Below are positions 502-35,289 of a stretch of 35,289 nt of DNA, piece after piece. The notes beneath the pieces are model-generated. The model worked only from the letters and a program-made list of their open reading frames with translations. It did no database searches and was not told where the DNA came from. The position numbers were made by a program, and so were the translations under genes. The stretch is from Candidatus Altarchaeales archaeon (GTDB lineage Archaea > Altiarchaeota > Altiarchaeia > IMC4 > QMZM01): assembly GCA_023252215.1 (NCBI GenBank), contig JAHEXG010000008.1, positions 1 through 35,289 of the forward strand, written 5' to 3'. Within the stretch, counting starts at the first letter, position 1. Each line of letters starts with the position of its first letter.

Positions 502-990
502 ATGGATCGCTTTGTATCTGAAGAATTAGCCACTTTTGAAGACCCAAATGGAGGTTCTGGAGGTTACCAGCTAATCGAAAGAATACTTGCTTTGAGTGTA
601 TCAAAACTGTGGAAAGAGGCAAAGGAAGAATGGATTCACATAGATACATATTTTGCCGAGACATTGTCAGAAAGGAAAGCATGCACGTGTGGTCATTATC
701 CGATAAAAGAAATCTGCATAATTAAGAATATAAAGAATGAAAACGAGGCCATTGTCGGCAATTGTTGTATCCTAAGGTTTACCGAACAAGTTGATAAAAA
801 AGTGTTTAAGGCATTGTCTGAAAGAAGAATAAATCAAGCATTGATTAGTCTGGCATATAAAGATAATAAAATCAATTACAGGGAGAAAAATTTTCTACTT
901 GATGTCTGGAGGAAAAAGAGAATGACTTTAAAACAGAAATCATGGTTTAATAGTCTAAAGAATAGAATTTTTAGGGAATACATAAAATAG
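502..990 (+). CDS. Hypothetical protein with CxCG metal-site-like motif
   Basis: A 162-residue protein not assigned to a named family. The centre has ACTCGHYPIKEICIIKN followed about 20 residues later by VGNCCILRF. This gives two or more Cys pairs and a His in a pattern like a small zinc ribbon; similar CxCG...GxxC blocks occur in uncharacterised proteins of phage and accessory regions. The C-terminal third is basic and helical (many Lys/Arg, ending near WFNSLKNRIFREYIK), suggesting nucleic-acid contact. It follows the Rad50/SMC-like gene on the same strand and is probably co-transcribed. An attC-like palindrome lies 134 bases after its stop. The start at 502 is the first ATG after an AT-rich gap; only a weak purine stretch precedes it. 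Function unknown. Confidence 0.7.
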   Translation: MDRFVSEELATFEDPNGGSGGYQLIERILALSVSKLWKEAKEEWIHIDTYFAETLSERKACTCGHYPIKEICIIKNIKNENEAIVGNCCILRFTEQVDKKVFKALSERRINQALISLAYKDNKINYREKNFLLDVWRKKRMTLKQKSWFNSLKNRIFREYIK

Positions 991-1017
991 TGATTTTCTC
1001 TTCAGCGCACGGCCCCC

Positions 1018-1301
1018 CAACCCTAATTTTTGACGGAACTGGGGCAACAACACGGACGACCGGACGGGGGCGCATTTCCGAACTTCTCGTCGCCTCGCTG
1101 CGGCTCCTCGACCCTGATGGGGCGCATAACAGGCTTTTTACGGTTCGCTCCCTTCGGTCGCTCAGCCCAAATTAGCCCTTCGGGCTAACTTCGTAAAAAG
1201 CCGGACGTTATACGCAATTCGGAAACCCGGCCTCTTAGGGATACGTTGTAGCCTCAGTTCACGGACGAACGAATTTAGTTAAACGAGGGGGCGGGGGCGT
1301 C
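1018..1301. repeat. Composite repeat A: attC-like palindrome with flanking inverted arms
   Basis: This fills the gene-free stretch 991-1334. Three parts are visible. The left arm (about 1018-1123) matches the left arm of repeat B (about 4207-4311) in the same orientation, for example 1036-1051 against 4225-4240. The centre, 1124-1213, is a palindrome: GCATAAC (1124-1130), stem GGCTTTTTACG (1132-1142), stem CGTAAAAAGCC (1192-1202), GTTATAC (1207-1213), with an inner hairpin TTAGCCC-TTC-GGGCTAA (1172-1188). The right arm (about 1214-1301) is the reverse complement of left-arm sequence: 1245-1260 matches 4225-4240 inverted at 15 of 16 bases, and 1286-1301 matches 4198-4213 inverted at 15 of 16. 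The AAC...GTT box geometry resembles integron attC sites. A 61-codon reading frame inside it (990-1175) is repeat sequence, not a gene. Confidence 0.75.
1124..1213 (+). other. attC-like palindromic site A
   Basis: The 90-base palindrome has outer 7-base boxes ending in AAC (left) and starting with GTT (right), asymmetric spacers between the outer boxes and the 11-bp inner stem (1 base against 4), and a structured variable centre. Integron attC sites have this layout: an RYYYAAC box, a GTTRRRY box, extrahelical bases and a variable loop. Here the boxes are GCATAAC and GTTATAC, each deviating at one position from the strict consensus. No tyrosine integrase gene lies in the window. Resemblance is by eye; covariance-model scoring would decide. 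Confidence 0.5.
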
Positions 1302-1334
1302 ACGACGGACGACGCCTAACGAATATCGAGATAA

Positions 1335-2762
1335 TTAAACCCCACCTATTTTCCCTTTGAGTAAGGCAAATGCTATATTAAGACATTTATCAGCATCATT
1401 TTTTGTGATTTCTTTTTTGCTATTATGCGCTATGCTGTCTCTTTTCTTTTTCAATTCCTCGAAAGACCCATAGTCCTTGTCCTCCAATTTACCTGCTAAA
1501 TTAAGTATTTCAAGGGCATAATCAATGCTTCTATGTTGTAACTTTTCTTTCCTCTTATTTGTTGCTTTTTTTTCATTCAATAACTCCCCCAATTGCTCAG
1601 ATAAATATCCTTCAATTATGAGCCAACTCATGAATAGCGATTGTAGGTATTCTGAATGTCTAAAATGAGTATATGCTTCAAGAAGAAAGAGTAAGGAGTT
1701 ATCAAAAGCCGGATCTACCTTCTCTGTTTGTTGAATAATCGCTTTTAGCTTATTGTGAGGTATTTTAGAGCGTTTTAACGCTATATCCACAGGACCCATA
1801 TCCCATTTCTCCATCCCAAGATCGGTCCGCAATGTGGGTTGTCCACTCCAAGATTGACCTTTAATTTCCCATGTGTCACTGATTGTAAGGTTCTCTAACT
1901 CAGAGTCTCGTATAGTCTCGGTGGAAATGTCGTTAAACAGTAAAACCGCCATTATTTTATTGAGAATTTTCTTGGATGTTTCTTTATCATCCAAAACTAC
2001 ACCTATAAAGCCATCAACATTTACGATTACCTTCGCCCCGTTGTAGTCGACATCAAAAGATTTTTTGCAGTATTTTAAATAGCCGCCCACACCCATTTTC
2101 TCTCGGAAAGTTAACTGTGGAATTTCATCTATCCAAATTGGGGGGTAGAAATAAGTGCCAAAGCCCTGAACGGAGTTCTCTGTTGATTTTGGTTTCTGCT
2201 CTTTTTTAAATAACTCAGTTCTTTCCTTAGCTTCTTTAATAAGTCCATCAACAAAGGAAGATGCGTTTCTCTTCGTTATATCTCCCTTAATTAAACGAGC
2301 AAAACCGTGATTTTTTGTAATAGCCAGACCAAAAGAGTCTTGGGGGTTTTCATCGTGTTTTACGAACACATCCCCCTTTACTATTTTTACGATTTGTAGA
2401 AAAAATCCTTCTATAATTTTTCCATAGGTTTGATCCTGGTCTACAATGAGAAATTGCCCCTTATCTTCATCACTTAATTCTTTTTGCCATCTTCCTTCTT
2501 TCAATATTTCCTCGAAATGAGGGATAGCATCATAAATAGGTACTGCTTTATGGATTACAAAGTTCAAGTCATCCTCCCAAGTAAAGTGTGTTATTATTAT
2601 AACTTGATAAGTAGGATCTGTAAAGGATATAACCTCAATTTGACAGGGCGATAAGAAATTCCAAGAATTGCCTATTCTCTTCTGTTCTCCCTCTGAAAGT
2701 TTTTGATACTCATCTCTAAATAAAGAGATTACCTCTTCAAACCAATCTTTGATATTATCCAT
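1335..2762 (-). CDS. HEPN-domain protein of the AlbA/HEPN accessory pair
   Basis: A 475-residue protein. The last 110 residues look like a HEPN domain of the ApeA/RiboL type: a helical stretch from about residue 365 (LLFLLEAYTHFRHSEYLQSL), then KKKRDSIAHNSKK with the Rx4H motif at R441 and H446, and a closing helix. HEPN domains of this type are often metal-independent RNases in toxin-antitoxin, abortive-infection and CRISPR systems. The N-terminal 350 residues are mixed alpha/beta and not recognised. The gene is second in a minus-strand pair, starting 10 bases after the stop of the AlbA-type gene, so the two are almost surely co-expressed. It is clearly AT-rich against the window average. 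ATG at 2762 follows directly on the upstream stop; no strong ribosome site is seen. RNase activity is inferred from the motif alone. Confidence 0.7.
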   Translation of the reverse strand: MDNIKDWFEEVISLFRDEYQKLSEGEQKRIGNSWNFLSPCQIEVISFTDPTYQVIIITHFTWEDDLNFVIHKAVPIYDAIPHFEEILKEGRWQKELSDEDKGQFLIVDQDQTYGKIIEGFFLQIVKIVKGDVFVKHDENPQDSFGLAITKNHGFARLIKGDITKRNASSFVDGLIKEAKERTELFKKEQKPKSTENSVQGFGTYFYPPIWIDEIPQLTFREKMGVGGYLKYCKKSFDVDYNGAKVIVNVDGFIGVVLDDKETSKKILNKIMAVLLFNDISTETIRDSELENLTISDTWEIKGQSWSGQPTLRTDLGMEKWDMGPVDIALKRSKIPHNKLKAIIQQTEKVDPAFDNSLLFLLEAYTHFRHSEYLQSLFMSWLIIEGYLSEQLGELLNEKKATNKRKEKLQHRSIDYALEILNLAGKLEDKDYGSFEELKKKRDSIAHNSKKEITKNDADKCLNIAFALLKGKIGGV

Positions 2763-2772
2763 TATCCGTGTA

Positions 2773-4131
2773 TCACTGATCAGTAATTTCCCATCGTCCC
2801 CCTTTGGCTGGACCGATCCGTCTTATTATGCCTTTCTTCTTTAGCTTTGCCAGGTTATCCTCTGTTTTTCTTTGGGATATACCCACTTGTTCGGCTATCT
2901 CCCTTGCGGAAATATCCTCTTGTTTCCGGATCAGTTCTATTATCTTTTGCTGGTTTGGGGTCAGTTTTCCTCCGACCTTTTCTCCGACCTTTTCTCCGAC
3001 CTTTTCTCCGACCCTTTCAGGGACATAGTCCTCTGGAGCTTTTCTTTTGAACGTTGTTATGAATATGCCTGCGACCTCTTCGAAGGTTGTCTGTGGAGCT
3101 TTGGCTAAGATCAGTTCTATCCCGCGCCCCCATTTCTCGACCAGGTGTATCTTGTTGAACATGTCGGCTATCAGTTCGTTTCTTCTCTTGGAAACGCGCT
3201 TTGTCGTGATGTCTTTGATCGTAAGCCCACCGTATAGTCCTCCCGGGCTTCTTATTTCCAGGCGGTCGCGGAATATTGCAATGTTTACTGAGTCGTATTC
3301 GTGGTAGTCGCGGTGGCAGAATGCGTTTATTATGGCCTCTCTGAATGCGTCTTTGTCTATTTCCGGCATGTCCACGCGGTATAATCCTTCCAGTCTCATG
3401 CCGACGTTTATGTGTTCCAGCACATATTTCTGGGCAGTCTCGATCAAAGTGAATATATCCCCTGAATAGTCCTGCATGTCTATTGGAAAAGACGTATCCT
3501 TTGTGCCGAAGACCGCGCATCTTAGGCGGGCGTTTGGAAAGAACTTTTTAGGGTTTTTACCGAACAGTATCACAGCGGCATTCAAAATCTTTCTGTCGGA
3601 TAATAAGCCAAGCTTTTGAAGGGAGTTCTCAATCGTGTCAAATTTTAGACCCGCTTCTTTAAGGAACTTTCTAAGCTTCATCGGACTTATGTCCGCAAAA
3701 CCTGCCTTCTCGCATACGGCAGTATCCCAACGCAGCTTGTCCTTATTCTTATTAAGGATTATTTCTTCTATCTCCTTGGCCGAAAGCTGCCGATCCTCGT
3801 CAGCTACACGGATATATGCTCGACCATATGCATAATACGGCTTGTTGTTTCCTGAGAACTCGACCTTAATACAAATCTTACCATCTATATCCTCTTTAGA
3901 TATCTTGGGATAGATTCTCGGCTCAACGTTCTCCGAAATCGCCTGAGACACATCCCGTAAAGTCCTCTCCCCGACATCTTGGCCTAAGGCTTTGCCGTCG
4001 TTCCTTACACCAAAGTATAGAACACCTTTTCCGTGCTTGTTCAGCATCGAAGCTATTGAGATCACACCCTCCCGCAGTTCAGACGTGGACTTCTTAAGCT
4101 CCAAAGTCTCGGTCTCGGAAAGAACGGCCAT
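2773..4131 (-). CDS. AlbA_2/Schlafen-type ATPase-domain transcriptional regulator
   Basis: Predicted regulator of the COG2865 type, 452 residues from ATG 4131. The N-terminus has the AlbA_2/Schlafen fold signature (ETETLELKKSTSEL, then GKGVLYFGVRNDGKALG). The centre resembles the GHKL-like domain of this family (AIINAFCHRDYHEYDSVNIA, then a Gly-rich segment ending EKWGRGIELI). The C-terminus is a winged helix (ISAREIAEQVGISQRKTEDNLAKL). A VGEK tetrapeptide repeat encoded by 12-bp DNA repeats links the last two domains. The frame stays open up to 4239, but bases beyond about 4197 belong to repeat B, so those residues are unlikely to be conserved protein; TTG 4170 is an alternative start. The HEPN gene follows by 10 bases. 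In this family the AlbA domain is linked to nucleic-acid binding or cleavage; a defence role here is inference. Confidence 0.8.
   Translation of the reverse strand: MAVLSETETLELKKSTSELREGVISIASMLNKHGKGVLYFGVRNDGKALGQDVGERTLRDVSQAISENVEPRIYPKISKEDIDGKICIKVEFSGNNKPYYAYGRAYIRVADEDRQLSAKEIEEIILNKNKDKLRWDTAVCEKAGFADISPMKLRKFLKEAGLKFDTIENSLQKLGLLSDRKILNAAVILFGKNPKKFFPNARLRCAVFGTKDTSFPIDMQDYSGDIFTLIETAQKYVLEHINVGMRLEGLYRVDMPEIDKDAFREAIINAFCHRDYHEYDSVNIAIFRDRLEIRSPGGLYGGLTIKDITTKRVSKRRNELIADMFNKIHLVEKWGRGIELILAKAPQTTFEEVAGIFITTFKRKAPEDYVPERVGEKVGEKVGEKVGGKLTPNQQKIIELIRKQEDISAREIAEQVGISQRKTEDNLAKLKKKGIIRRIGPAKGGRWEITDQ
2966..3013 (-). repeat. 12-bp tandem repeat encoding VGEK linker
   Basis: Three perfect 12-base units (2978-2989, 2990-3001, 3002-3013 on plus, TTTTCTCCGACC) are followed by one degenerate unit. 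Read on minus they encode VGEK repeats between the ATPase-like and winged-helix domains. The in-frame unit length means copy-number change alters linker length without a frameshift. Confidence 0.9.
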
Positions 4132-4472: not shown

Positions 4473-5765
4473 TCAGCACGAGCCCGTCGTAGACAGTCCG
4501 CCGGTGGACGCGTTCAGCGTTACGTCGCATCCTTTCAGGCCTGTGTTGTATTTGCAGAGGTTTTGTTTTACGGTTTCTGCGTCTATGGCGCTGAATTCGT
4601 AGCGGTTGTTGGCGAGCCAGGTGGGCGAGGATCCTATGTCCAGGGAGTTGGCTATCTTTATGTCGGTGCTTAGTAGTTCTTTGCCTTTGGTTCCGTTGAC
4701 GCATTTCTCGACTGTTTTAACCGCTACCGTGCTTATTCCGGCCTCGTTTGCGCAGGTGTGCCAGTCGATGCCTTTGACGCCGTTTGTGCTTCTGCAGTTT
4801 ATGTAGTCCAGCCATTCGTCCGGGCTGTATTCTTTTACGCATAGCTGTACTATGTCTTCGTCTACTTCGTATTGGCCGTGCAGGCTGCTGAATGCGCCTC
4901 CTTGTTCGTTCGCTATGTAGTGCACGTCGTAGGTTACGGCGTCTCCGAAGTTGTCAACTGCCTGTTTTAGCGCCGTTATTGCCTGTTTTCCGTAGGGGCA
5001 GTCGCTCATCACAAAGACCTGTATGTCGTTCTTGGTTGCGTTTCTGCATACCAGTTTGTCCTTGCAGCCAGGGTCATTGCAGTCCACTAGGCCGTTTGCG
5101 TCATCGTCTATGCCGTTGTCGCATATCTCGGCCGCAGGGTCGAAAGATGCGCCGATCCTCAGGGACTGGTATTTGCCCGCGGGCTCCAGGTAGTCTTGTA
5201 TCTGTGAATAGTTTTTGGCGTTCTTGACGTCGTCTGAGAACATTATCGCAGGCAGGTATTTTATCTGGGCGTCGGCGTATAGTTTCTTTCCTTCCGTTGT
5301 TCCGTAGTCTATGTTTGTCGTGGTCAGGCCGGGGAAAACGCCGGACAACTGGGTTATTACGTCGTTTACAAAGACGCATTCGGTGCAGCGCTTGTCGTTC
5401 AGTACGACGACGCTCACCTTCTGAGTCGAATCTGTAAAGAGAGTTGTGGGTGGAAGTGTCTGCGCCGTAGTTATCACAGTTATTGGAGATGTGTTGTTCG
5501 AGGAATCGTTGTATACTATCAGCCCTGTAACCTTGTTCAGGGAAGAGATCTTTCCTCCTAGGACGTTGATCTGGGCGATGGAGTAGACATTCAGGAGCAG
5601 GACCGCCACGGCAAGACCGATTACTAGGTATTGCATGGTATTCTTCGGCGTTTCTTCCATGTCTTTTCCGCGGGTAGCTTCTTCCACGACAGAATCAAAG
5701 CTGTTGTCGCTCTCAATCAAAGCATCTTTTGTATCTTTATCTGTGTTTTTTGTTTCTTCATCCAT
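4473..5765 (-). CDS. Membrane-anchored protein with two thioredoxin-like domains and a Ca-binding-like insert
   Basis: A 430-residue protein. The acidic N-terminus (about 1-42) is cytosolic, followed by one membrane helix (about 45-65, YLVIGLAVAVLLLNVYSIAQI), so the rest should face outward. The first thioredoxin-like domain has a CTEC site in VVLNDKRCTECVFV. Then comes ICDNGIDDDANGLVDCNDPGC, the Asp-rich Cys-flanked loop common in secreted proteins and read as a Ca-binding segment. The second thioredoxin-like domain has SDCPYGKQA, where the second Cys of CxxC is Gly, and HGQYEVDEDIVQLC, reminiscent of the GILT thiol-reductase family. Further Cys residues (CRSTNGVKGIDWHTC, ending STTGSC) suggest disulfides. 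A likely role is extracytoplasmic thiol exchange. The start is set by GAGGTGAGG nine bases before ATG 5765; a TATA-like box lies at 5796-5806. Confidence 0.75.
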   Translation of the reverse strand: MDEETKNTDKDTKDALIESDNSFDSVVEEATRGKDMEETPKNTMQYLVIGLAVAVLLLNVYSIAQINVLGGKISSLNKVTGLIVYNDSSNNTSPITVITTAQTLPPTTLFTDSTQKVSVVVLNDKRCTECVFVNDVITQLSGVFPGLTTTNIDYGTTEGKKLYADAQIKYLPAIMFSDDVKNAKNYSQIQDYLEPAGKYQSLRIGASFDPAAEICDNGIDDDANGLVDCNDPGCKDKLVCRNATKNDIQVFVMSDCPYGKQAITALKQAVDNFGDAVTYDVHYIANEQGGAFSSLHGQYEVDEDIVQLCVKEYSPDEWLDYINCRSTNGVKGIDWHTCANEAGISTVAVKTVEKCVNGTKGKELLSTDIKIANSLDIGSSPTWLANNRYEFSAIDAETVKQNLCKYNTGLKGCDVTLNASTGGLSTTGSC

Positions 5766-31912: not shown

Positions 31913-32173
31913 TCACTGCGTTCTTTTGTAAACGCTCTTCCTGTGACCGACAAACCTGACAATTAATTCATCCGGATTGTAAGAGACATCGACCAATATG
32001 CGGTAATCCCCGGCCCGTATTTTATATCCATACTCATGTTCCGTGAGCGGTTCAAGGAACCTTGCCGTCTCTCCTGCGAGTCTCACCCTTGCAAGTATCC
32101 TAACAACAACGTCCCTAGGAAGTTTCTCAAGCTGTTTTGCAGCCTTAGGATCCCATTTAACGGAAAAACTCAT
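31913..32173 (-). CDS. RelE-family toxin
   Basis: An 86-residue RelE/ParE-fold protein: FSVKWDPKAAKQLEKLPRDVVVRI at the start, then the strand cluster YGYKIRAGDYRILVDVSYNPDELIVRFVGHRKSVYK, in which RAGDYRIL and HRKSVYK hold the basic and Tyr/His positions used for ribosome-dependent mRNA cleavage. Its ATG overlaps the antitoxin stop (ATGA at 32170-32173). Length is typical. Confidence 0.9.
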   Translation of the reverse strand: MSFSVKWDPKAAKQLEKLPRDVVVRILARVRLAGETARFLEPLTEHEYGYKIRAGDYRILVDVSYNPDELIVRFVGHRKSVYKRTQ

Positions 32174-32367
32174 AGAAACTTCCTCTCGATTTCCTCCTGA
32201 GAAAGAAGCTCTCCCCTATCTCTTTTCCGTGAATCCTCGATCTGTTTCTTAACCTCGCCGGTAAGCTCAAACCTGCCCTCTTCAATATAATCCTTTATCT
32301 CCTTCACATCCCTCTTAAGGGCCTTCAGATCGTCACGTATCGCCTTCAACGAAACCGATTCACTCAC
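32170..32367 (-). CDS. Antitoxin of the RelE pair
   Basis: A 65-residue helical protein beginning at GTG 32367. SLKAIRDDLKALKRDVKEIKDYIEEGRFELT is a heptad-like amphipathic helix and SRKRDRGELLSQEEIERKFL the toxin-binding tail, a form seen in archaeal RelB-type antitoxins. It overlaps the RelE gene. A TATA-like TATAAATT at 32380-32388 (minus) is only 13-21 bases upstream, which suggests a leaderless transcript with GTG as first codon. Confidence 0.75.
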   Translation of the reverse strand: MSESVSLKAIRDDLKALKRDVKEIKDYIEEGRFELTGEVKKQIEDSRKRDRGELLSQEEIERKFL

Positions 32368-32418: not shown

Positions 32419-32921
32419 TCACCTGCACAGGCCCGCAACGGGATGATCCATGCAAACCAACTCCAAAAGTTCCCGGATTTTCACCTTGACATCACTGTTC
32501 TCCGCCTCCAACAAATCATTCTCCTTCCCAGATCATTGACCTGTTTTTGCTGCTCCTGCATGGCCCCTGCAAGCACCGGTGTAATCTTCTCATAGGAAAT
32601 ACCCTTGTAGCCGTTGTTGTCCTCGGTTACCAACTAAGGAAGGACCCCCTCCATGTCCTGCGCGATGAAACCGATCTGAGTGCCATTAGGGAATGACGTA
32701 TTTGTATCATTACGCCAACATGAAATGAACAGGCCAAAGACCCATCACCTTGCCAAGAGAGCCGCCATGAAGCAGTATATTCTTAGTTCCATCACACATC
32801 AGAACCAGACCATGTACCACTGGTGACCTAGGCAGTCCCGCTAACGGTTAAAGTATAGCAGTGGCTCGTCGTACCGATGCCGACGCTGCCGATAGTATCT
32901 ATCATCACATCGCCAGGAGTT
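32419..32921 (-). pseudogene. Decayed fibre-protein C-terminus with peptidase S74 domain
   Basis: Read on minus from 32921, frames interrupted by stops and shifts give a fibre end. It begins GDVMIDTIGSVGIGTTSHCY and TLTVSGTA, then a stop (TAG), then VTSGTWSGSDV, a stop, a shift, and GGSLGKVMGL. Next come WRNDTNTSFPNGTQIGFIAQ, DMEGVLP, a stop, LVTEDNNGYKGISYEKITPV and LAGAMQEQQKQVNDL. After a further shift it ends KENDLLEAENSDVKVKIREL and LELVCMDHPVAGLCR to a stop at 32419. This is the S74 intramolecular chaperone domain of tail spikes (IAQDME...L, GYKGISYEKITP) with its closing coiled coil. Three stops and about three shifts show it is no longer coding. It starts exactly where the intact fibre gene stops. 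Confidence 0.85.
32867..32890. repeat. 24-bp repeat, copy in decayed fibre end
   Basis: These 24 bases are identical to 33249-33272. Both encode the VGIGTT motif, but in the decayed end and the intact gene respectively, 382 bases apart. Together they enclose the C-terminal module of the intact gene and could have served as homology for its insertion. Confidence 0.85.
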
Positions 32922-34991
32922 CTATTCTTCGTAAATAACAGTAATTGTAAAAGGTTTTGATACTGCCGCTGATGCAGTTCCCCCAAGACGAAGGTTAACA
33001 TTTGTCCCATCCGCCCATATATCATATAAATAATTCGCATCCAGGGTTTTATCTGGCGGAATAGCGTAAGTACCAGTTTGCACTATGCCCATTAAAGAAA
33101 TTATTTTTGATAAGGTTAATCCATGTGCTACGGAAACAACGCTTCCCACTGTAGCTCCAGTAGTTCCTGTAAGTTTTTTAATCTTTATCTTAGGAGCATC
33201 GCTGCCTAATTGCGTATAACCATTTACATCTAATGCAACATCAGGAGTCGTCGTACCGATGCCGACGCTGCCAGTACTTGTTATTGTTACTCTATCCCCA
33301 GCGGACGCGCCAGCGTTGTAGAAATTTAAATTGCTTGATGTCCCGGGGATATACATTATCCAGTCGGCATTGGTTGTGCCAGTTTTTAACCGCAACGCGG
33401 CTTGATAATCGCTGCGGGCATTTTCCACCATGAGATAATTGTGGTTGGCTGATCCTGCCGGATTGTAGGTATGCAACAATGCTGCCGGTGCCGTCGTACC
33501 GATGCCGACGTTGCCAGTGCCTTTTATAGTTAAAATTTTATCGGTCCATGTTTTATAGCCAGCATTGTAAAGCCCCCCAAAATACATATTCGTATTGGCT
33601 CCGTCCCAATCCACGCCAATGGTTCCAACCGTGCTTGATCCATCTCGCCATTGCAATCCCATCTGATTATTCGAGCCGGGATAAGTACTCATTCCAGCAC
33701 TCGAACTGATAGTGATAAGCCCCTGATTACCGGTTGAAGATGTCTGAACATCCAGTTTGGAATTTGGCACCGTCGTCCCGATGCCGACGTTGCCAGTATT
33801 TCCTTGAATAGCCAAAACATCACGCACAGAATTTGGAAAGTCTTTTACTTTAAACAAATAGTCCACATTTGCACTACTTGGACTGTTGGGAACAATATCA
33901 AGATAATAATTCGTCGGATCGCCAGCGCTCCCTATAATACGAAAAGCAGGAGTACTGCCGTCGGCATCTTGCACAACAGTCAACTTCGCCCCCGGCGCCG
34001 TCGTCCCGATGCCGACGTTGCCTGATTTATCTATTCTTAGCCTTTCAGACATGATTCCCGCATTTGTCGTAAAAAACGCCAAACGCCCCGAATTAACCTC
34101 CCCGTCGGTAAGCGATGAAAGTTGCGCCAACCGCATTTCATCAGTCCCTTCAACGCCCGCGGCTGTATTCACAAAGGAAACAATACCAACCAAACCGTTT
34201 GATACCGTGGCCTGACTCTTACTCAATACCAGCCCCGAAGAAACGGATGAACCCCCTGCAACTTCCAAAATCGATTTACTCTGACCGGAGAACCCGGAAT
34301 ATAACTGCGTAAGGGCTGTTTTATATCCAATAACCGCATCCACCGTACCCGAAGAACCATAAACATTCAATTTCGCCCCAGGACTCACCGTCCCGATGCC
34401 GACATTGTATGACGTAGAATTAGGATAAAGACTGGAACCGCTTAAATTCCAATAACCCCCGCTCCCGTTCCCACCTATTCCACCGCAATTGCTCCCGCCA
34501 CAGGAAATGTTCCCGGAAGCATAAATATCACCCACAACATGAAGATTATACGCCGGAGTAATCGTACCAATACCAACACTACCATTATCAGTGATCGTAA
34601 ACCGGGTCCCGCTATTACCATAAAAAGAAAAACTATTACCAGTCAAACCCACGCCCTTACCCACAGTCCAACCACCCTCAAGACTCTGATCAGAGCTCCT
34701 AAAACTTATAGCTGCTTCGCCGCCGGAAACAGTATTGGTCAAATGAAGAAAACCATAACTAGAAACCCCGGAACTAACATGCAAAGGCGACTCCGGCCCA
34801 GCCGTACCAATACCAACACTACCAGGAAAACTCCACACATCACCCGCCACACCATAAAATGCGCCAGAACCGACCTGAGTCGCATTATGACCCGGATTAG
34901 GAGTGGAAGAATACGCAGGAACTACAAACAGACACGTGATCATGGATAACGCCATCATAAGATCCCAATTTATGCTTTCCTTGTTTTGCAT
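32922..34991 (-). CDS. Secreted fibre-like protein with VGIGT repeats
   Basis: A 689-residue protein from ATG 34991, chosen for AAGGAT eight bases upstream; an ATG at 35078 is less likely. A signal peptide (WDLMMALSMITCLFVVPAYS) precedes SSTPNPGHNATQ. Seven copies of a G(S/N)VGIGT(x)3Px3L(x)V motif are spaced unevenly, near residues 40, 95, 155, 300, 365, 455 and 560. This motif marks trimeric phage tail-fibre and adhesin shafts. The C-terminus (IKIKKLTGTTGATVGSVVSV to FTITVIYEE) is a different, non-S74 end. A relic S74 end follows at once. Two DNA styles of the motif occur: GC-rich (33249-34400) and AT-rich (34560-34820). It may be a surface adhesin or a provirus fibre. Confidence 0.8.
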   Translation of the reverse strand: MQNKESINWDLMMALSMITCLFVVPAYSSTPNPGHNATQVGSGAFYGVAGDVWSFPGSVGIGTAGPESPLHVSSGVSSYGFLHLTNTVSGGEAAISFRSSDQSLEGGWTVGKGVGLTGNSFSFYGNSGTRFTITDNGSVGIGTITPAYNLHVVGDIYASGNISCGGSNCGGIGGNGSGGYWNLSGSSLYPNSTSYNVGIGTVSPGAKLNVYGSSGTVDAVIGYKTALTQLYSGFSGQSKSILEVAGGSSVSSGLVLSKSQATVSNGLVGIVSFVNTAAGVEGTDEMRLAQLSSLTDGEVNSGRLAFFTTNAGIMSERLRIDKSGNVGIGTTAPGAKLTVVQDADGSTPAFRIIGSAGDPTNYYLDIVPNSPSSANVDYLFKVKDFPNSVRDVLAIQGNTGNVGIGTTVPNSKLDVQTSSTGNQGLITISSSAGMSTYPGSNNQMGLQWRDGSSTVGTIGVDWDGANTNMYFGGLYNAGYKTWTDKILTIKGTGNVGIGTTAPAALLHTYNPAGSANHNYLMVENARSDYQAALRLKTGTTNADWIMYIPGTSSNLNFYNAGASAGDRVTITSTGSVGIGTTTPDVALDVNGYTQLGSDAPKIKIKKLTGTTGATVGSVVSVAHGLTLSKIISLMGIVQTGTYAIPPDKTLDANYLYDIWADGTNVNLRLGGTASAAVSKPFTITVIYEE
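33249..33272. repeat. 24-bp repeat, copy in intact fibre gene
   Basis: Identical to 32867-32890. Similar copies with one to three changes lie at about 33489-33512, 33771-33794, 34001-34024 and, more diverged, 34383-34400. Each encodes VGIGT. Confidence 0.85.
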
Positions 34992-35289
34992 TTTTCGTTT
35001 ATCCTTAATTAAAAAATCGTTTGAATAATTATCATAAAAAAACACCAGCCCCGGACCCCAAAAACACAGAACCCCCATCCGCGCAGAGATTTTCTCCGAC
35101 CCAGAACAAGCTTACAGAACCCGCATCATCGGCACTAAAACTAAACACAAACACACCAACGAACCGAACAAAACCAAAACCAGAATCAGCAACACAAAAA
35201 TCCGAGAACACAACACCACAACCAGATACGCAACAACGAGCAGTCTCTACCAAACCAGACCTAAAACCAAAAACACAATACGACCCCCC
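34992..35289. other. Gene-poor right end
   Basis: This 298-base end has no convincing gene. Bases 34995-35040 are AT-rich and would hold the fibre-gene promoter. From about 35041 on, the plus strand is strongly A and C rich (many AAC, ACA and CCA triplets) with few G or T. A 73-codon minus-strand frame (35032-35253) looks like composition bias, not protein. The window ends here. Confidence 0.5.

Follow-up and report, generated by a model that had tools for sequence, protein, structure and literature searches.

Can the replacement of a fibre tip be read from the DNA that it leaves behind? Mosaic fibres are known as finished products, and a tip swap is rarely caught in DNA. The window analysed here, which is the entire 35,289-bp contig C1 of an archaeal genome (1.55 Mb in 90 contigs), contains an intact fibre gene with VGIGT repeats, directly followed on the same strand by the decayed remains of an S74 chaperone end. 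An earlier note on this DNA had proposed that recombination between VGIGT repeats brought in a new tip and displaced the old one. In this study, we address the following: (i) the origin of the tip that the fibre carries at present; (ii) the role of VGIGT DNA in the exchange of fibre modules; and (iii) whether the stranded S74 end was once the tip of the same gene.

Anatomy of the fibre locus

The features of the locus are listed in Table 1. The open frame of the fibre gene (32922-35078, minus strand) is unbroken up to the stop at 32922, and the ATG at 34991 is the likely start because the alignments with the paralogues begin at this position. The gene sits among cellular genes, and no recognisable provirus surrounds it. 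According to the alignments, its anchor (..SSTPNPGH.A.Q.G.G.F.G..DVWSFPG) is common to two paralogues of the same genome and to the Aenigmatarchaeota genome AUK155. The modules of the stalk are separated by seven VGIGT repeats, with valine codons at 34817, 34577, 34403, 34016, 33788, 33509 and 33266, and the protein closes with ...FTITVIYEE-stop. A Pfam search of the full protein returned no match, including none to S74. The comparison of C-terminal modules among paralogues, which had been advised in the earlier note, set this non-S74 end beside two S74 ends, those of the fibres on contigs C34 and C38.

Table 1 Features of the fibre locus in the window
Feature	Positions	Strand	Remarks
Region upstream of the fibre gene	35106..35237	minus	85% identical to the C34 paralogue
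Intact VGIGT-repeat fibre gene	32922..34991	minus	689 aa; Bd2133 match, E 6.5e-9; PHROG tail-fibre matches
Signal peptide-like start and conserved anchor	34818..34991	minus	precedes the first VGIGT
Stalk, six modules separated by VGIGT repeats	33249..34817	minus	
24-bp VGIGT repeat, left copy	33249..33272	minus	seam of the tip join; GC3 change point 33248
Non-S74 tip, phage-type terminal domain ending IYEE-stop	32925..33248	minus	108 residues; phrog_3018, E 9e-18
Decayed S74 chaperone end and coiled coil	32422..32920	minus	5'-truncated, 3'-complete; 3 frameshifts and 3 stops
24-bp VGIGT repeat, right copy	32867..32890	minus	perfect repeat; first part of the decayed end
Small ORF in antitoxin position	32170..32367	minus	about 55 bases past the stop of the decayed end
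ParE-type toxin gene	31913..32173	minus	PF05016

The decayed end occupies about 500 bases directly behind the fibre stop. It encodes TPGDVMIDTIGSVGIGTTS..YTLTVSGTA, then the S74 pieces GTQIGFIAQDMEGVLP and LVTEDNNGYKGISYEKITPVL, and in its 3' part a coiled coil followed by ..LVCMDHPVAGLCR-stop, with the pieces spread over three frames. The Pfam S74 model (PF13884) scores 21.1 bits (E 6e-4), below the 22-bit cut-off, because the frameshifts leave only half of the domain in any one frame. A frameshift-tolerant alignment with the S74 end of the C34 paralogue spans 32902-32425 and scores 161 over the last 140 residues, against a maximum of 32 in 12 shuffles. The catalytic SDxxxK motif is broken by an internal stop and has lost its lysine, whereas it is intact in the paralogues (SDLRWK in C34 and SDARIK in C38). 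Stop-codon readthrough was considered and rejected: translating TAG would not mend the frame, since frameshifts and a TGA stop are present besides the TAG stops. The 5' truncation leaves only about 12 stalk codons ahead of the VGIGT, and the decayed end begins 0-10 bases past the stop of the intact gene.

Three structural observations of the earlier note were recovered by these analyses, namely a short non-S74 domain at the end of the intact fibre, placed from about 33240 and found to run from 33248 to 32925; a decayed VGIGT, S74 domain and coiled coil right after the stop; and a perfect 24-bp repeat enclosing the new end.

The region upstream of the fibre gene is matched at positions 5203-5328 of the C34 locus (L020), and both contigs end nearby; the two loci may therefore lie next to each other in divergent orientation, or a longer repeat may be common to both.

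The small ORF beyond the decayed end is a putative antitoxin gene from its position, and no Pfam family was found for it above the cut-off. The toxins of the window and the C34 locus resemble each other only weakly (39% over 36 aa), the ORFs in antitoxin position are unrelated, and a common cassette of tip plus toxin-antitoxin pair is thus unsupported by sequence.

An imported phage-type tip

The tip matches the C-terminal third of phrog_3018 (236-340 of 341), with a single profile position left over at the end. Its third-position GC content (GC3) is 22%, compared with 44% in the rest of the fibre gene; the best change point lies at the edge of the 24-bp repeat, and none of 500 permutations gave one as strong. 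Homologues 33-46% identical to the tip were found in six IMG/VR contigs using a degenerate DNA pattern that describes the terminal KPF..YEE-stop, followed by a two-sequence scan. Scanning the viral contigs by exact back-translation of the tip, alone or with the anchor, gave no match, and neither did tblastn of the tip against annotated phages and plasmids. The stop follows YEE directly in all but one of the phage homologues, and IYEE-type tips are joined to VGIGT or LGIGT stalks in loci L055 and L057. A phrog_3018 search did not find the tip in the other 246 archaeal genomes, one of which has a match limited to the stalk portion of the profile, and the tip is carried by 0 of the 28 relatives from the same phylum.

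Most phage tips share the composition of their own gene, so the low GC3 is not intrinsic to the domain; the same break occurs in the middle fibre gene of phage L055 (IMGVR_UViG_3300005077_000012), where GC3 is 16% in the tip and 42% in the stalk. The composition break at 33248, together with a domain common to phages, gives good support to the conclusion that the present tip was imported as a module and joined to the stalk at a VGIGT repeat. The segment sits between two VGIGT repeats as other modules do, and it could accordingly have been an internal module from the outset, with a nonsense or frameshift mutation severing the VGIGT-S74 end in place. Such a truncation is extremely improbable, given that the phage proteins carry the segment as their terminal domain with the stop placed as described, that the profile match runs practically to the profile's end, and that the distance from repeat to repeat is 382 bases, which is no multiple of three.

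The fold of the tip was predicted from seven sequences as all-beta (pLDDT 76.5), a single-sequence prediction being unusable (pLDDT 31). The nearest solved structures to the model are the receptor-binding ends of pyocin and phage fibres and H-type lectins; the resemblance is suggestive, with all Z scores at or below 6.5, too low to name the fold. Tips of mosaic adhesive trimers (MAT) are missing from the list of top structure matches, which is no evidence against a likeness to MAT.

VGIGT DNA as a recombination seam

The two 24-bp copies are members of a set of VGIGT-coding repeats, near-identical to one another, in the window gene and its paralogues, and their identity is therefore unremarkable in itself. 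They are the only copies of the GTC-GGC type with AGC ahead of the VGIGT codons, a shared variant that counts in favour of displacement. A 17-bp form of the motif, allowing up to 4 mismatches, does not occur in positions 1-31000 of the window.

Shared blocks of DNA repeatedly stop at these repeats. The C34 and C38 paralogues have in common a 281-bp stalk module (93.6% identity) at different positions, and identity drops to chance at VGIGT DNA on either side. Between the window and C34, the upstream DNA (85%) and the anchor (74%) are alike up to the first VGIGT. AUK155 has a pair of complete fibre genes in tandem, whose anchors agree and whose ends differ; they share 304 bp of upstream region plus anchor (85%), ending at the first VGIGT, and also a 140-bp module (90%) bounded by VGIGT. 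In G005, a genome of the window's own family, two loci (L029 and L031) share 252 bp of promoter plus anchor (89%), ending exactly at GTCGGCATCGGA. Phage L055 carries three fibre genes in a row (675-3908), ending in S74, an IYEE-type tip and S74, and the blocks shared among them are again bounded by VGIGT DNA. The placement estimate for eight block edges inside the repeat is 3e-7, an indicative figure only, as the edges depend on one another and alignment ends are pulled towards the repeat by the conserved motif.

The codons of the motif are more uniform than elsewhere in the same genes: valine is GTC in 12/15 cases against 15/105 (p 5e-7), threonine ACG in 13/14 against 42/131 (p 1e-5) and isoleucine ATC in 11/15 against 16/69 (p 4e-4). 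AUK155 shows the same bias for valine and threonine. This uniformity fits repeats that were copied or homogenised as DNA. The same pattern would be expected after recent duplication of modules, although most modules lying between VGIGT repeats are unrelated. The shared blocks stopping at VGIGT in this genome, in two other archaeal genomes and in the phage array, combined with the uniform codons, make the role of VGIGT DNA as a recombination seam well supported.

Several further observations were made on these repeats and loci. Two sets of repeats seem to exist: the first VGIGT copies (window 34803-34817 and 34563-34577; L020 4970-4983) use GTT GGT ATT GGT codons, and the downstream copies GTC GGC ATC GG. 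The GTC GGC ATC codons of the window genome also occur in a VGIGT fibre of the sister species G001 (L005, contig C219, 742-2358), whose end is weakly like Peptidase_G2 and represents a further type of tip. The G005 genes are short fibre genes that continue beyond GTCGGCATCGGA into unrelated, cysteine-containing ends.

Origin of the stranded S74 end

Displacement of the fibre's own former tip is, in our assessment, the best single explanation of the locus, and we consider it moderately probable as a whole; that the S74 end once terminated this very gene is likely. It amounts to an entire S74 end like those of the two intact paralogues, it starts at a module border with no trace of a second anchor, and one event plus decay suffices for the window. 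Under this explanation, the DNA coding for the capping loops, near-identical between modules, would act as the seam. A foreign, AT-rich tip of the phage-fibre type with its own stop would have been joined in frame at the left 24-bp copy, a step for which the composition break and the phage homology speak directly. The other end of the incoming DNA would have been attached by a non-homologous join inside the last stalk module, upstream of the previous VGIGT-S74 end, which would then have stayed untranslated behind the new stop and decayed. Homology-facilitated illegitimate recombination (PMC3240628) is a known process that, by analogy, would have the right shape: homology guides the join at one end and plays no part at the other.

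The earlier proposal thus fares differently in its parts. A new tip brought in by VGIGT recombination is supported by the GC3 break and the phage domain, and the stranded S74 end as the gene's own old tip is likely rather than proven. Exchange at VGIGT recurs in the C34/C38 and G005 blocks, but a simple crossover between the two 24-bp copies is insufficient: the right junction is found at the stop codon instead of a repeat, and the lead-in to the VGIGT of the decayed end follows 3' of it. An illegitimate join is required there under every model, and this weighs against displacement. The same S74 end fused in frame to this stalk, which the earlier note had advised looking for in related genomes or strain reads, was found in none of the relatives compared. 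The flanking acyltransferase served as a guide in the search for the orthologous locus; G001 also keeps the next stretch (window 31077-29801), including an Lrp-type regulator. The VGIGT motif was not found on that 11.8-kb contig, which therefore cannot show the ancestral state.

The decayed end could instead be the remnant of a tandem neighbour, a second S74 fibre gene that lost its anchor and most of its stalk before the rest decayed. Complete tandem fibre genes exist in AUK155 and in L055, which makes this a serious rival. In L055 the first two genes overlap by 4 bases and the S74 gene follows the IYEE-type gene after 4 bases, in the order of tip-fibre and then S74-fibre that the window would have had; furthermore, two other fibres of the window genome end in S74. 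However, the sequence separating the stop from the decayed end shows no trace of an anchor, a signal peptide or another stalk module, and the deletion would need to end almost exactly at the stop, since the decayed end begins within 10 bases of it. This explanation also costs more, since it needs a neighbour and a large deletion besides the import of a tip, the first gene's tip being itself imported. Taken together, a tandem neighbour is possible but rather unlikely, and under it an earlier tip exchange in the first gene may still have occurred. The earlier note had named two separate full-length fibre genes, with no exchange of ends, as the pattern opposed to its reading. Full-length fibre genes side by side are present at another locus of another archaeon (AUK155) and in phage L055, yet stalks or ends have also been exchanged at VGIGT in both.

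An S74 end abutting a fibre stop was seen once more, in genome G197, which speaks for displacement as a comparable anatomy and against the loss of a neighbour. In locus L045 (G197:C20, 1012-1342, minus strand), an intact S74 fibre ends in TAG, and an in-frame, open S74 end follows at most 6 bases on; it is 5'-truncated and lacks the catalytic SDxxxK front. The intact tip and this remnant are 77% alike in DNA, so the case could be a tandem duplication; it could also be an orphan tip or, with its single in-frame TAG, a readthrough product. Stranded S74 ends occur in only 2 of the 13 archaeal S74 loci examined, which counts against displacement.

An assembly chimera at the 24-bp repeat, uniting two fibre loci of a mixed population, was also weighed. 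In its favour, VGIGT DNA is repeated, and two fibre loci lie on contigs that both break off in an upstream region common to them. Assembly k-mers are usually longer than this 24-bp repeat; besides, the tip, low in GC3, continues the reading frame of the stalk, the decayed end is genuinely decayed and G197 has a comparable anatomy. A chimera is very improbable.

A further stranded VGIGT fragment lies in C34 (L020, 2980-3150, minus strand), downstream of the intact S74 fibre and past the ParE toxin gene; it is 82% identical to the decayed end of the window over 60 bp, and a degenerate VGIGT copy stands directly behind the stop of the toxin. This likeness, too, counts in favour of displacement. 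As a wider and rather doubtful idea, VGIGT DNA may be kept in archaea and viruses as a short seam for taking ready-made tips from a shared phage pool, and stranded tips, at times with a toxin-antitoxin pair between (as in C34), may mark successive swaps and could re-attach.

Stalk, seam, imported tip of phage type and broken S74 end can all be seen at one locus, and if the swap is real, this is a rare snapshot of fibres changing their adhesion targets. An S74-terminated fibre, whose self-cleaving chaperone would trimerise it, would have become a fibre with a self-folding tip, and its binding target would presumably have been altered. A rule open to testing also emerges from the analysis, namely that VGIGT DNA is where tips and modules are exchanged.

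Comparison with known systems

Among the closest known systems are the MAT fibres of Bdellovibrio bacteriovorus, which include S74 and non-S74 members and for which 'tip swapping' has been suggested (Caulton et al. 2024, PMC10769870). Both kinds of fibre have long stalks with VGIGT loops that carry S74 or non-S74 tips, together with a conserved N-terminus and a variable C-terminus. The best PDB sequence match of the window fibre is Bd2133 (8ond), and phmmer also matches 8oml; the stalk repeats VGIGTTxPxxxL contain the MAT capping-loop motif V-G-G/N-x-x-x-P-x-x-x-L; and S74 and non-S74 tips occur in one genome (C34 and C38 versus the window). The beta-rich N-terminal domain of about 130 aa is absent: the first VGIGT lies about 58 residues from the start and the anchor measures about 35-50 aa, leaving no room for it, and we therefore call the fibre MAT-like rather than MAT. 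It differs further in its archaeal host, its short anchor and the DNA trace of a swap. The word archaea is absent from the main text of the MAT paper (PMC10769870), and the present fibres extend the MAT-like type with exchangeable tips to archaea. The fibre is probably trimeric and, with its signal peptide-like start, would be secreted and displayed at the surface; it would consist of the conserved anchor, stalk modules headed by VGIGTxxPxxxL and an exchangeable C-terminal tip.

In Rhs genes, C-terminal tips are displaced and the old tip is left downstream (Jackson et al. 2009, PMC2935791), so that a core with exchangeable tips of differing GC content is followed by a silent displaced tip behind a piece of core. 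The locus has a tip whose GC3 is unlike that of its core, with the break at a repeat; a loose downstream tip preceded by a core fragment (VGIGT plus the adjoining stalk codons); and the same anchor with different ends in the window, C34, C38, AUK155 and G005. Unlike Rhs, the seam is a 24-bp repeat inside the stalk and not a long core, the remnant is single and decayed, the product is an adhesive fibre and not a toxin, with no immunity gene shown, and a circular intermediate alone does not account for the right junction.

Modular phage tail fibres with an S74 (endosialidase-type) intramolecular chaperone share the stalk, the S74 end and the IYEE tip family, with three such genes in a row in L055; the window gene differs in its signal peptide-like start and cellular neighbours. 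By analogy, the gene appears to work like a MAT fibre with C-terminal displacement of the Rhs type.
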